Below are positions 20,223 to 27,703 of a stretch of DNA of 35,235 nucleotides, piece by piece (the first letter of the stretch is position 1; each line of letters begins with the position of its first letter). The notes under the pieces are model-generated. The model made no database searches. It was given only the letters and a program-made list of their open reading frames with translations, and was not told where the DNA came from. Source of the stretch: Thermoflexales bacterium (lineage in GTDB: Bacteria; Chloroflexota; Anaerolineae; B4-G1). Location: contig SKLM01000115.1 of assembly GCA_007123205.1 (NCBI GenBank), forward strand, positions 1 to 35,235. The letters are read 5' to 3'. A program made the translations under genes and the position numbers.

Positions 20223-22544
20223 ATGGATCCTCAACCAGCGAAGATACCAGAAGTCCTCGAGCTGTACCTGCAGCTTTCCCAATATCCGATCTTGTCGCAT
20301 CGCATACGCGATCGGATGCGGCAAGAGCTGTTCCGGCGCGGGGTTATCAGCCGGGAGGCCTTTGAGGAAGAGGCGAAGCAGAAGGCCGTGGTTTCGCAGA
20401 GGCGAGAAGGGCTGCAGGATCCGTTTGCTGAGGAATCGATGGATGTGTGGAAGGCGCGATTGGAGCAGATCCGGGATCACCTGACAGACTTCTATTTCGC
20501 CTACAACCTCCCACACAGCCTGTTCGAGGAGATCGTCCGCGACGTGGTCGCGCAAGAGGCTCCACTCCCGCCAGGATCACTCTCCTTCAATCCGGAGCTT
20601 GCGCCTCAAAGTATGCTGCTGGCACAGGCCAAGGAGTACGCCGCGCTTCCCACCGATCAGCAACAGGAGATCTTCCATCATCTGAAGGAGATCACGGTGG
20701 TGTTGACCAAGAGCATGGTCAGCGATCAGATGGCGTTTGTCGGTCTCGCGAAGGACTACTTCGAGCCGGCCGACTTTGAGCAGATAGCTGAGCGGCGGAT
20801 TGGCCGGGGCAAGATCGGTGGTAAAGCGGCAGGGATGATGCTGGCCTGGAAGATGCTGCAGTGCGAGCTGACGGGGGATCTGCGGGACTTGGTCCAGCGG
20901 GTGGTGATACCTGACTCCTACTTCGTCGGCGCAGATGTCTTCTACGACTTTCTTGCCGTCAATGAGCTCGCCGAGTCGGTGAATCAGAAGTACAAGACGG
21001 AGGAGGAAGTCCGATCGGACTACCCGCACATCCAAGAGGCCTATGTGAGAGGAAGGTTTCCCGACCACGTGGTGTTGGGCCTGCAGGCACTGATGGATGA
21101 GGTGGGGCGTGCGCCGCTTGTCGTGCGGTCCTCTAGTCTTCTGGAGGACAACTTCGGCTTCTCGTTCGCGGGCAAGTACGATAGCTTCTTCTGCCCCAAC
21201 CAAGGCACTCGGGAGGAGAATCGGGAAGCGTTGACCGGGGCTATTCGACGCGTGTACGCCAGCGTTTTCAGTCCCGATGCTCTCCTGTATCGGAAGCGGA
21301 TGGGGCTGGTAGACTATGACGAGCGAATGGCCATTCTTATCCAGAAGGTACAGGGGGAGCGGTATGGTGACTACTTCTTCCCGATGGTGGCCGGCGTCGG
21401 CCTAAGCCGGAATCCGTACCGCTGGAGCAGGCGGATTCGACCGGAAGATGGGTTGCTGCGCCTGGTGTGGGGATTGGGAACGCGCGCGGTGGATCGCGTT
21501 GCCCGGGATCATCCGCGAATGGTGGCGCTGAGCCATCCGAACCTCAGACCTGAGACCAATGCCGAGGAGATCCGCAAGTACTCACAGCACTTCGTAGATC
21601 TGATCGACCTTGAGGGGAATGCTTTCAGAACCCTTCCGGTGGGGGATCTGCTGCAGCACGGTTATCCACATATACGATTGGTGGCATCAGAGGACAAGGG
21701 GAGCTATCTCCAGCCTGTTTACGCGCCGGGGGGTATGAACAACCCGCGATTCGTGCTCACCTTCGCTGAGCTGCTTAAGAATCAGGAGTTCGTGTCGCTG
21801 ATGCAGGGGGTGGTTCAGAAGCTGGAGGAGCACTACGGGAGACCCGTAGACATAGAATTCACGGTTGAGGCCTCGCGGGAGACAGGAGGGGGATTCACGC
21901 TCCACCTGCTCCAGTGCCGCCCGCAAAGCTGGTTCGAGGGGGGAATCTCGATAGATGTTCCGGTGGAGGACGTACCAGAGAGTGATATCCTCTTCTTCAG
22001 CCAGCGAATGGTACCGCACGGAAAAGTCACCAGGATCCGCTACATCGTGTACGTAGACCCAGCTCAATACGATCGGGCCCCGGATCACAGCACCAGACTG
22101 GAAGTCGCGCGAGCGGTGGGGCGACTGAACAGGCGGCTGGCAGGCGAGAGGTTCATCCTGATGGGCCCTGGACGCTGGGGGACAAGCAACGTTGAACTGG
22201 GACTCAAGGTCAGCTACTCCGAGATACATAACGCCCGGGCGCTGGTTGAGATCGCTCGGACCGGCAGAGAGGGCGCCCCAGAAGTCTCCTACGGCACCCA
22301 CTTCTTCCAGGATCTGGTTGAGTCTCAGATCTACCCCATGCCCCTCTATCTGGGTGACCCGGCTACGATGTTTAACCGCCGGTTGCTGGACGAGGCTCCG
22401 AATCTCCTGGCGGAGCTGCTGCCCGAGGACGCTGCACTGTCGCAGTATGTCAAGGTGATAGACGTTCCGGCGATAGCAGACGGGCGCCACGTTGACCTGC
22501 TGATGGACAGCATCGAGGACAAAGGGCTGGCGTACCTGCGGTAG
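20223..22544 (+). CDS. PEP/pyruvate-binding (PPDK_N-type ATP-grasp) protein lacking the phosphohistidine and PEP-binding modules
   Basis: GRGKIGGKAAGMMLAWKM, APLVVRSSSLLEDNFGFSFAGKYDS, LLQCRPQSW; no GG-T-SHAA swivel motif. Confidence 0.8.
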   Translation: MDPQPAKIPEVLELYLQLSQYPILSHRIRDRMRQELFRRGVISREAFEEEAKQKAVVSQRREGLQDPFAEESMDVWKARLEQIRDHLTDFYFAYNLPHSLFEEIVRDVVAQEAPLPPGSLSFNPELAPQSMLLAQAKEYAALPTDQQQEIFHHLKEITVVLTKSMVSDQMAFVGLAKDYFEPADFEQIAERRIGRGKIGGKAAGMMLAWKMLQCELTGDLRDLVQRVVIPDSYFVGADVFYDFLAVNELAESVNQKYKTEEEVRSDYPHIQEAYVRGRFPDHVVLGLQALMDEVGRAPLVVRSSSLLEDNFGFSFAGKYDSFFCPNQGTREENREALTGAIRRVYASVFSPDALLYRKRMGLVDYDERMAILIQKVQGERYGDYFFPMVAGVGLSRNPYRWSRRIRPEDGLLRLVWGLGTRAVDRVARDHPRMVALSHPNLRPETNAEEIRKYSQHFVDLIDLEGNAFRTLPVGDLLQHGYPHIRLVASEDKGSYLQPVYAPGGMNNPRFVLTFAELLKNQEFVSLMQGVVQKLEEHYGRPVDIEFTVEASRETGGGFTLHLLQCRPQSWFEGGISIDVPVEDVPESDILFFSQRMVPHGKVTRIRYIVYVDPAQYDRAPDHSTRLEVARAVGRLNRRLAGERFILMGPGRWGTSNVELGLKVSYSEIHNARALVEIARTGREGAPEVSYGTHFFQDLVESQIYPMPLYLGDPATMFNRRLLDEAPNLLAELLPEDAALSQYVKVIDVPAIADGRHVDLLMDSIEDKGLAYLR

Positions 22545-22803: not shown

Positions 22804-22848
22804 ATTCTGAGTGGGGCGCGGCCTGGCTGGGCACCCTGGGCAGCGTGG
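22804..22848. repeat. 45-bp direct repeat, copy 1
   Basis: ATTCTGAGTGGGGCGCGGCCTGGCTGGGCACCCTGGGCAGCGTGG identical to 23059-23103. Confidence 0.95.
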
Positions 22849-22933
22849 CTACCTGGGGATGACGGGAATGCGAGAGCTGGTTGGCGTGCGGCCGATGGGC
22901 CCGCGTTCAGAGACCGGGGCATCGGCCCAGCCG

Positions 22934-23058: not shown

Positions 23059-23103
23059 ATTCTGAGTGGGGCGCGGCCTGGCTGGGCACCCTGGGCAGCG
23101 TGG
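23059..23103. repeat. 45-bp direct repeat, copy 2
   Basis: Identical to 22804-22848. Confidence 0.95.
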
Positions 23104-23230
23104 TTAGCGACATCTTCGAGGAGTTCCGGGCTTGGCGGTTGTGAGGTTTCGTGAACACCAGACAGGAGGATGGAAGAGGGTGCCCAACGCCGAAGTGGAC
23201 ATCCGGGTGATCACCGGCAAGGTCTTCACC

Positions 23231-23258
23231 TTGACAAAAGGGCAGAAGGCCCTATAAT
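23231..23258 (+). promoter_or_regulatory. rpoC promoter, consensus TTGACA - 16 nt - TATAAT
   Basis: TTGACA 23231-23236, TATAAT 23253-23258. Confidence 0.85.
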
Positions 23259-23283
23259 ATAGGTTTGCGGTTAGACCGGCACT

Positions 23284-23347
23284 CTAGCGTAGACGTGTGG
23301 TGCGAAGCGCTGAAGGCTTCTGGGGCTCAGCGCTTCTTCTACGCTGG
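23284..23347 (+). ncRNA. Nested double-helix leader structure in the rpoC 5' UTR
   Basis: Outer AGCGTAGA 23286-23293 / TCTACGCT 23338-23345; inner GAAGCGCTGA 23304-23313 / TCAGCGCTTC 23327-23336. Confidence 0.65.
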
Positions 23348-23371
23348 CGGGCTCCCTAGAAAACAGGAAGG

Positions 23372-26300
23372 GTGATGAATAACCGAAACGACAGCGGGCT
23401 AGAATCGCACGACTTCCGGAGTTTGCGCATTAAGCTGGCATCACCGGAAGACATTCATAACTGGTCCTACGGAGAGGTCACTAAGCCTGAGACGATCAAC
23501 TACCGCCGCCTTCGTCCCGAGAAGGACGGTCTCTTCTGCGAGGCCATTTTCGGCCCCACCAAAGATTACCAGTGTTACTGCGGTAAGTACAAGAACATCC
23601 GCTACAAGGGCATCATATGTGACAAGTGCGGAGTTGAGGTTACGCGTGCATCGGTGCGGCGCGAGCGGATGGGGCACATCGATCTGGCTGCTCCAGCGGC
23701 GCACACCTGGTACACGCGTCGTGTGCCCAATCACCTAAGTAAGCTGATCGGCATACGAAAGCTTGATATGGATCGGGTGCTCTACTTCGCCAAGCACATC
23801 ATCATCAACGTCAACGAGGATGCACGGCAGAAGGCTCTCCACCGGCTCGAAGAGGAGTTCAAGGAAGCCCAGGAGAAGCGTGAAGGAGTATCTCAGGAGA
23901 GCATCGAGGCTCTGCAGGAACGACTGAAAGAGGAAGAGACCCGGATCCAGGAGCGGATCGACGAGATCCTCAGCGAGTTCGATAAGAGTCTGGATGCGGC
24001 GACAGGGGAGGTCGTCCAGGAAGCTCAGTCGCTGCAGCGGAAGATCGAGAACCGACACGGGGAGACGTTGTCAGCGCCGATGGTGTTCAAGCCAACGGGC
24101 GAGATCATCGCGGATCAGGGTGAAGTCGTCGGCCGCGCGCACCTGACGGCACTGAATACGACGGTTCAGGATCATCTGAGTGACGTCGAGGAGTCGCTGG
24201 AGATCCAGCGAGAGGAGAAGCTGGCACCACTGCGAGAGGATCTGGAGAGCTGGCGTGAGGCCACTCAGGACGAGATAGATCACATCGAGGAGCGAGCAGC
24301 TGCGGAGATTGAGGAGTGGCGTGCGAATCTGGATGCCGATCGCGAGGAGTTGCTGAGTCTCGCGAAGTACCAGTGCATGGGCGAGCCTCGCCTGCGAGAA
24401 TTGCGGAGCAAGTGGGGTCAGGCATTCAAAGCCGGCATGGGGGCGGAAGCCTTCCACGAGATTTTGTCCGGCCTCGATTTGGACGAGTTGGCTGAGGATC
24501 TGTGGCATCAAGTGCGTCACGACACCTCGAAGACGCGGCGCAAGGTAGCGCGGAGGCGCCTGCTCATCGTTGAGGCGCTGCGGAGGAGCGGTAACAGGCC
24601 GGAGTGGATCATCCTGACCGTGTTGCCGGTGATTCCCCCCGACCTACGCCCGATGGTGCAGCTCGACGGGGGACGGTTCGCCACCTCGGACTTGAACGAT
24701 CTCTATCGGCGGGTGATCAACCGGAACAACAGGTTAAAGCGTCTGCTGGAACTCGGCGCGCCCGACGTGATTGTGCGCAACGAGAAGCGCATGCTGCAGG
24801 AGGCGGTCGACTGCTTGATCGACAATAGCCGCGGCAAGGCTCGTTCCCGCCATGGGCACCGTGAGCTGAAGTCCCTCAGTGATATGTTGAAAGGGAAGAA
24901 GGGGCGATTCCGCCGCAATTTGCTCGGCAAGCGTGTCGACTACTCGGGTCGTTCCGTGATTATCGTCGGGCCAGAGCTCAGTATGGATCAGTGCGGTCTG
25001 CCCAAGAGCATGGCTCTTGAGCTGTACCGCCCCTTCGTGATCAGCAAATTGGTGGAGTACAACTACGCCACCAACGTGAAGGCTGCCAAGCGCCTGATCG
25101 AGCGCGAGCGACCCGAGGTCTGGGAAGTGCTTGAGGAGGTGATCGGTGATCGTCCGGTTCTTCTCAACCGCGCTCCAACTCTGCACCGCCTGGGTATTCA
25201 GGCGTTTGAGCCCACGCTAATTGAGGGCAAGGCGATTCAGCTCCATCCGTTGGTCTGCGCCGCGTTCAACGCCGACTTTGACGGGGATCAGATGGCGGTC
25301 CACGTACCGCTGTCCGACCGGGCCGTCGAAGAAGCACGGATGCTTATGCTCTCGACGCGCAATCTGCTCAAGCCAGCGAACGGGCAACCGCTGGTCGGTC
25401 CGACCAAAGACATGTGTCTGGGCATTTACTACCTGACAATGGAGGATGAGAAGTACGCCGACAAGAGCCCTAAGCCGTTCGTCGACTTGCAAGAGCTTGA
25501 GTTGGCCTACAGCCTGGGGCACGTCGACGTTCACACCCCAGTCCTCGTGGCACAGGTCTACGACGACAAACCGGCACCGGACGAGCCGATCAGGACCACG
25601 GCAGGACGATGCCTGTTCAACAGTGCTCTGCCTGACGAGATTCGCTTCATCAACCACGCACTGGACAAGGGAGCCCTCCAGGACCTAGTCGCTCTAAGCT
25701 ATCGACGGTTGGGGCGTGAGAGGACGACAGGGGTTGCAGACCGCCTGAAGGACCTCGGATTCCAGTACGCGACTCGCTCTGGGATCACGATCGGTATCTC
25801 GGACCTGGTCATACCTCAAGAGAAGGTTGAGATTCTGTCCAGGACGGAGCAGACGGTGGCCGAGGTAGATAGACAGTATCGTCGTGGCTTGCTCACGGAA
25901 GAAGAGCAATACACGCGGACGGTGGAGCTGTGGTCACGGGCGAGGGAGAAGGTGGCCGATGTGGTGGCGCGGGCCCAGCCCGACAACAGCACGGTATCGG
26001 TGATGGCTCGATCGGGCGCATCCAAGGGCGGATACGGCCCCATCTCGCAGTTGGCTGGCATGCGGGGCCTGATGGCTGATCCGTCCGGGCGGATTATCCC
26101 GTTACCCATTCGGTCCAGTCTGCGTGAGGGTCTTTCGGCGCTGGAATACTTCATCAGCACGCACGGTTCGCGGAAAGGACTGGCGGACACCGCCCTGCGC
26201 ACAGCCGATGCCGGCTATCTGACGCGTCGGTTGGTCGATGTGGCGCAGGACATCATCATCAACGCTCACGATTGCGGCACCCAGGCCGGGATAGGGATCC

Positions 26301-27703
26301 GTACCGATGATGACGTGGGCGGACAGAGCCTGGAGGAGCGGCTGGTGGGGCGGATGGCAGCCAGTCCCATAGCCGATCCCGACACCGGAGAGCTGATCGT
26401 CGATCGGAATGAGGAGATTGACGAGGATGCGGCAGGGCTCATTGAGAAGGGCGAGATCGCGCAGGTGGACGTTCGGTCGCCGCTAACCTGTGAGCTGCGG
26501 CATGGGATCTGCGCTCTGTGCTATGGACGCGATCTGGGTCGCGGTGACTTGGTAGAGGTTGGGTCGGCAGTGGGTATCGTCGCTGCCCAGTCGATCGGTG
26601 AACCGGGCACGCAGCTGACGCTGAGGACGTTCCACAGTGGTGGCGTCGCAGTGGGCCGTGACATCACCGTTGGTCTGCCGCGCGCGGAGGAGCTCTTCGA
26701 GGGGCGTAAGACCCCGAAGGGCGAGGCGCCTATATCGGAGGTGGGCGGCATCGTTCACATTCACAAGACGGACGGGCTCCGGCACATCACCGTGGTGGAC
26801 ACCAGGGTTAAGACGTATGACTATGACATCGCAGACGGGTGGACCATTCTGATCGAGGATGGCGACGATGTCCGAGCCGGCGAAGCCCTAGCTTCGCTGG
26901 ATGATGAGGAAATCGAGGCCGAGGCAGATGGTCGCGTTGTGGTGAACGACCGACAGATCACGCTGATCCACGAAGATCGACGGGAAGTCCGACATAGGCT
27001 GCCGCAGACGGGGAGGATACTGGTTGAGGAGGGGCAGGAGATCGCACCGGGCACGCAGTTGGTTGAGGGTGTCAAGAACCCGCGCCATATCCTACAGGTA
27101 CTGGGACGCAAAGCAACAGAGGAGTATCTCCTGTTGGAAGTTCAGCAGGTCTACCGATCACAGGGAGTGAATATCAACGACAAGCACTTCGAGATCATCT
27201 TCCGCAAGATGCTGAGCAAGGTGAGGGTGACTCGCTCCGGCGATACGGACCTACTGCCGGGCTTGTTGATCCGGCGGCTGGACCTCGAGGACACCAATCG
27301 CGAGGTTATGGAGCAAGGTGGACAGCCTGCGACAGCGATTCCAGTGCTGCTGGGCATCACCCAGGCAGCTCTGAATACCGAGAGCTTCCTCTCGGCGGCC
27401 TCCTTCCAACACACGATCCGGGTGTTGACCGAGGCAGCCGCGGAAGGCCGGGAGGACCCGCTGCTGGGACTGAAGGAGAACGTGATCCTAGGTAAGCTGA
27501 TTCCGGCGGGGACGGGGTACAGGGGCAACAACCCCTCCTCCGACGGTCCCATCGAGACCTACGGAGGCATCGCCCTGGAGTTGGCCGCTGAAGAGGAGGA
27601 ACTCGAACCTCCGGAGAGAGAGCCCGAGGTGGAAGAACCGGAGACAGAGAAGAAGCCAGAGGTCAGGAAGTCGGAGATCTTGGGCATCGCCACGCCGGCA
27701 TAG
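23372..27703 (+). CDS. rpoC: DNA-directed RNA polymerase subunit beta'
   Basis: [23 protein letters not shown] zinc site, [12 protein letters not shown] catalytic loop, full-length 1443 aa. Confidence 0.99.

Follow-up and report, generated by a model that had tools for sequence, protein, structure and literature searches.

A conserved, covarying hairpin in the leader of stand-alone rpoC genes in the Chloroflexota class Anaerolineae

As a rule rpoB and rpoC share a transcript, and this keeps the two large subunits of RNA polymerase in balance. In the window, the whole 35,235-nucleotide stretch analysed here from a Thermoflexales bacterium (contig SKLM01000115.1), rpoC has no rpoB upstream. The nearest same-strand open reading frame of annotated size on its 5′ side encodes a PPDK_N-domain protein and ends at 22544, and the rpoB gene of the same genome lies on a separate contig with its own promoter, TTGACA-N16-TACAAT. 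What, then, precedes an rpoC gene that stands alone, and could it set the supply of beta′? A preliminary description of the window had proposed a dedicated structured leader with two nested helices. This proposal is strongly supported by the comparisons reported below, in which the inner hairpin proves to be conserved across the class, covarying, specific to rpoC and tied to a promoter of its own.

Promoter and paired segments in the window

The features of the locus are these:

23231..23258, + strand: sigma-70-type promoter of rpoC, TTGACA-N16-TATAAT, matching the consensus at 12/12 positions
23265..23371, + strand: predicted 5′ leader of the rpoC mRNA, its start inferred from the promoter, about 7 nt past the −10 box
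23284..23293, + strand: 5′ strand of the outer helix P1, CTAGCGTAGA, identified by pairing; the sister species L003 keeps CTAGCGTAG
23304..23313, + strand: 5′ strand of the inner hairpin P2, GAAGCGCTGA, with the conserved AGCGC core; perfect complement, covariation
23327..23336, + strand: 3′ strand of the inner hairpin P2, TCAGCGCTTC; perfect complement, covariation
23337..23341, + strand: UUCUA, degenerate counterpart of the U-rich tail of relatives (UUUUG..UU), from the tail profile; terminator score −19.5
23338..23347, + strand: 3′ strand of the outer helix P1, TCTACGCTGG, identified by pairing; L003 has CTACGCTAG
23365..23371, + strand: Shine-Dalgarno-like AGGAAGG, read directly in the sequence
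23372..27703, + strand: rpoC (beta′ subunit), an open reading frame with Pfam domains RNA_pol_Rpb1_1 to Rpb1_5; start codon GTG 23372 or ATG 23375

The promoter is perfect, as had been described: TTGACA (23231-23236) and TATAAT (23253-23258) are separated by a 16-nt spacer, and a 12/12 site is unique to the rpoC promoter within the 10.5 kb scanned (shuffle baseline, 2.2 sites at ≥9/12). The representative relatives analysed carry a promoter of 10-12/12 at the equivalent place, a range that is partly by design since they were selected for a score of at least 10. The pairings in the leader were likewise confirmed. The inner helix joins GAAGCGCTGA (23304-23313) to TCAGCGCTTC (23327-23336) and the outer helix joins AGCGTAGA (23286-23293) to TCTACGCT (23338-23345), both as perfect complements, and the latter can be extended to 10 pairs (23284-23293 with 23338-23347). 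From the end of the outer helix to the start codon there are 24-27 nt, depending on the choice of GTG or ATG, close to the 25 nt first estimated, and the 3′ strand of this helix overlaps the site that the U-rich tail occupies in relatives.

Taken by itself, the folding of this one sequence is unexceptional. The minimum free energy of the whole window leader has a z-score of −0.67, which is uninformative as sole evidence and was set aside as such; 10-bp hairpins number six in the window versus 1.45 in shuffles; and an outer helix of equal quality arises in shuffled flanks with P between 0.004 (8 Watson-Crick pairs) and 0.015 (10 pairs with G-U). Comparison across genomes was therefore needed, and it is conservation between genomes, not folding energy, that lifts the helices above chance.

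Other sequences near the gene were also noted. The window leader contains an open frame that begins at TTG 23265 and closes with a TGA in overlap with the rpoC start. A leader peptide was nevertheless rejected because, by eye, the first and second codon positions hold most of the differences from L003 and because hairpin lengths vary within the family by non-multiples of three. On the 5′ side of the promoter lies a 48-nt direct repeat (22804-22851 and 23059-23106, 98% identity, 255 nt apart), present in the window in two copies and no more. The rpoB leader of the same genome (L113 4237-4257, minus strand) has a 9-bp hairpin, CGGAGCTCT/AGAGTTCCG, immediately 5′ of the gene and without a U-tract.

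Conservation and covariation across the class

Regions upstream of rpoC were drawn from genomes of the class, from named GTDB contigs and from further fetched regions, and include relatives such as Thermoflexales bacterium CSSed162cmA_459R1 (RpoC identity 92%). Nearly all stand-alone rpoC genes share one arrangement, namely a TTGACA/TATAAT promoter, a hairpin with an AGCGC...GCGCU core, and a tail of the UUUUGC-UUG type. After removal of duplicates, 122 distinct leaders had a promoter of at least 10/12, and the hairpin is present in about 100 of these, falling into 67 sequence clusters. In the 21 leaders put aside by eye no comparable hairpin was found, with the proviso that some of them (L217, L234) keep a hairpin with a T-run; together with L243 these represent divergent families that retain this arrangement in unrelated sequence. 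The hairpin usually lies 30-50 nt 3′ of the −10 box, with a short, broken U-tract (UUUUG..UU) behind it. The distance of the hairpin from the promoter is fixed (median 38 nt, s.d. 7.9), and that to the start codon is loose (s.d. 35.6; 10th-90th percentile 32-116 nt).

Two further features were observed in particular groups of leaders. In those of the Anaerolineales type, a second conserved block, approximately TAGCACGNNTGTTCG, appears soon past the hairpin tail (L066, L083, L085, L086, L088, L096, L097, L099, L102 and L105). Many leaders of family f3, among them L209, L210, L212, L215, L216, L220-L223, L228, L230 and L231, have an ATG some 10-20 nt from the −10 box; it often reads ATGTC and in some cases opens a short frame across the hairpin, possibly a leaderless peptide.

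To assess covariation, 63 cluster representatives were aligned with MAFFT from sequence only. Among these diverged leaders, 9 of the 11 stem pairs change on both sides, and double-change cells number 79 versus 22.7 ± 7.2 in shuffles, with 0 of 500 shuffles as high. Sliding the partner strand out of register lowers the score from 0.341 to at most 0.211, and a smaller seed alignment agrees. Since the input had been pre-selected as hairpin-bearing, the percentage of paired cells is inflated, and the shuffles ignore relatedness; these biases weigh less on the double-change counts and on the slide control. G-U intermediates are frequent in the covarying stem, which fits RNA rather than DNA. Two pairs of the AGCGC core are constant in 62 of the 63 leaders, while the flanking pairs covary freely.

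The preliminary description had named conservation and covariation in relatives as its check, and here its two helices part company: the inner one passes, and the outer one does so in some clades only. The sister species retains the outer helix as CTAGCGTAG/CTACGCTAG. In another family, four leaders have an equivalently placed one that shows compensatory changes (CTCACGGGC/GCCCGTGAG; CACAGGCA/TGCCTGTG, twice; CAGACAAG/CTTGTCTG), and single leaders elsewhere do so as well (L070, L071, L170, L094 and L104). A class-wide outer helix was rejected by swap tests, in which leaders were exchanged between clusters: 16% of representatives reached rank ≤0.1 and 7% rank ≤0.05, near chance. The outer helix is thus a recurrent addition in some clades, real in the genus of the window and outside the conserved core.

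Specificity for rpoC and relation to gene order

A covariance model of the element (R1) finds one significant place in the genome of the window, the rpoC leader (E = 5e-5, next locus 7.7), and a second, broader model (R2) again ranks this leader first (0.009 versus 0.32), within an assembly that is 89% complete and in 454 contigs. When R1 was run on 250 genomes of the class, its top fifteen matches all fell 5′ of rpoC, some of them at loci that had contributed to the seed; weaker matches are mixed, including sites away from rpoC. In split genomes, the rpoB leaders (19 with a promoter of at least 10/12) lack the element, apart from one weak match in L257.

The element also follows the order of the genes. 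All 14 loci taken from other classes of the phylum have rpoB directly 5′ of rpoC, and their coding strands are without the element. Within the class, the 19 loci in which the two genes are adjacent (L185-L202 and L204) have no promoter above 8/12 and no R2 match. By contrast, about 31 of 40 separately fetched split-order loci have a promoter of at least 10/12. The leader accordingly accompanies the independent promoter, and comparison with the other classes identifies the split as derived. One genome, G086, has two rpoC genes (L202/L203), of which one adjoins rpoB without a promoter and the other is unlinked and has a TTGACA/TAGAAT promoter. Several of the exceptions among the split-order loci have rpoC behind a tyrosine-recombinase-like open reading frame; this apparent order, without the leader, recurs in several families of the class (L206, L208, L213, L214, L219, L226 and L236), perhaps a second arrangement that followed the separation of rpoB and rpoC.

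The element appears to be previously uncatalogued, and belongs in kind with the structured leaders of RNA polymerase subunit genes. No Rfam 15 family matched the window or eight relatives at the gathering score, nor did a permissive search give a match, and a search of the literature available to us found no account of a Chloroflexota rpoC leader. The nearest listed kind is the Lacto-rpoB RNA motif (RF01709), a candidate structured RNA from comparative genomics whose mechanism is unknown (PMC2864571). It resembles the present element in being a structured RNA at a gene for a core polymerase subunit, but it belongs to Lactobacillales and rpoB rather than to Chloroflexota and stand-alone rpoC; its covariance model gave no match, and its association with rpoB does not apply to an element that precedes rpoC.

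Possible modes of action and significance

What the hairpin does was approached through its likeness to terminators. As in an attenuator, a GC-rich hairpin stands between promoter and gene, and we scored it with our own implementation of the d'Aubenton-Carafa d (usual cut-off, d > 0). The median is −7.7 for the 67 cluster representatives, as compared with −56.6 for promoter-upstream sequence and −57.7 for shuffles; it is −11.5 over the full set of 122 leaders, nothing excluded, of which 68% lie above −20; and it is −74 for the 19 rpoB leaders with a promoter of at least 10/12, of which 10.5% lie above −20. Just 30% of the representatives exceed zero. The hairpins of the class score as borderline intrinsic terminators, U-rich for three to four bases and then interrupted. 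The lower score of the window leader (−19.5) is due to its tail, UUCUACG, which the outer helix absorbs; termination in this genus is doubtful, pausing or RNA stability being as likely. No mutually exclusive antiterminator emerged: swapped leaders pair with the hairpin arms at least as well as the upstream leader sequence itself. Such pairing defines switching attenuators only, and a fixed, leaky terminator needs none. In his-type pause sites a hairpin is followed after about 10 nt by a U/G step, as in many leader families here; the U-rich tail of the rpoC leaders is stronger, and any pausing at them is putative.

An effect on transcription is the likelier one, given that the spacing is held between promoter and hairpin but not between hairpin and start codon. 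We favour, at roughly even odds, the reading that a leaky intrinsic attenuator or a hairpin-stabilised pause sets the supply of beta′ now that rpoC has lost its rpoB partner. The hairpin with its AGCGC/GCGCU core would form 20-50 nt past the transcription start, ahead of the short interrupted U-tract, and would act on the very polymerase transcribing it, either as leaky terminator or as pause, so that a fraction rather than all of the transcripts reach rpoC. The amount of beta′ would be set thereby, perhaps adjusted by polymerase abundance or Nus factors. Autoregulation of the beta′ supply is plausible; pausing, termination and feedback are all parts that we infer. In the genus of the window the outer helix sits where the U-tract would be, so that the function may there have moved away from termination, towards pausing or a stable 5′ structure.

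The main fact that an attenuator or pause leaves unexplained is the near-invariance of the AGCGC core, which exceeds what a terminator stem needs and hints at sequence-specific recognition. It is for this reason that we retain a possible, if on balance improbable, alternative in which a protein, perhaps RNA polymerase or free beta′, binds the hairpin and the complex represses or activates rpoC in strict autogenous control. The restriction of the hairpin to rpoC in its own genome and the recurrence of the outer helix in some clades would suit such binding, as does the free covariation around the fixed core, but some families have a hairpin of unrelated sequence at the same place, and its position tracks the promoter and not the ribosome site. 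A more specific version, that the polymerase or beta′ reads the invariant stem and the leader serves as an autogenous sensor matching beta′ to the beta produced at a different locus, we regard as speculative and rather improbable; the same tentative standing attaches to its evolutionary counterpart, in which such a sensing leader would have been gained together with its promoter when the rpoBC operon split.

It is unlikely that the hairpin is just a stabiliser of the mRNA 5′ end or an RNase III processing site without regulatory input. Its 5′-proximal place would fit, as would the extended double-stranded stack formed where a clade has the outer helix, and both attenuation and processing of the E. 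coli rplJL-rpoBC RNA are reported in the title of a 1980 paper by Barry cited in PMC5371410, but neither the conserved U-rich tail right after the stem nor the absence of the hairpin from rpoB leaders would be explained. Gating of ribosome access to the rpoC start is quite unlikely: the outer helix of the window does end near the start codon, but neither helix includes the Shine-Dalgarno-like site, and the spacing between hairpin and start codon varies widely over the class. For a Nus-type antitermination site of the kind found in rRNA operons, with the hairpin and a boxA-like UUCUUU, one can point to GCUUCUUU past the hairpin in the family of the window, which resembles the order boxB-boxA. 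UUCUUU is not kept beyond this family, however, no boxA consensus is present in the 63 leaders, and the genome has no comparable copy as far as assembled, making this very improbable. Finally, pairing by chance and without function would accord with the unremarkable folding z-score of the single sequence, but is contradicted for the inner hairpin by its class-wide position, its covariation and the controls, and has hardly any probability left overall; it is possible for the outer helix beyond a few clades.

For an attenuator before rpoC, a close known counterpart is that of E. coli, which lies between rplL and rpoB, ahead of rpoBC, and at which rifampicin stimulates readthrough (PMC4670729, PMC6181997). 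The likeness would be that both decouple the expression of polymerase subunits from their surroundings, but the E. coli attenuator is intercistronic and precedes rpoB and rpoC together, whereas the element described here is promoter-proximal, precedes rpoC alone and combines an interrupted U-tract with conservation of the stem core. With intrinsic terminators and attenuators in general it shares a GC-rich hairpin, U residues directly behind it, on the 5′ side of a gene, and it differs from them in its short, interrupted U-tract, in its conserved stem core and in that an antiterminator was not detected.

The split of rpoB and rpoC in much of the class, with a leader on rpoC alone, amounts to a natural experiment in subunit balance. 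How the amount of RNA polymerase is set thereby becomes testable in a new setting, for which split and unsplit lineages and the hairpin-less rpoB leaders provide the controls.
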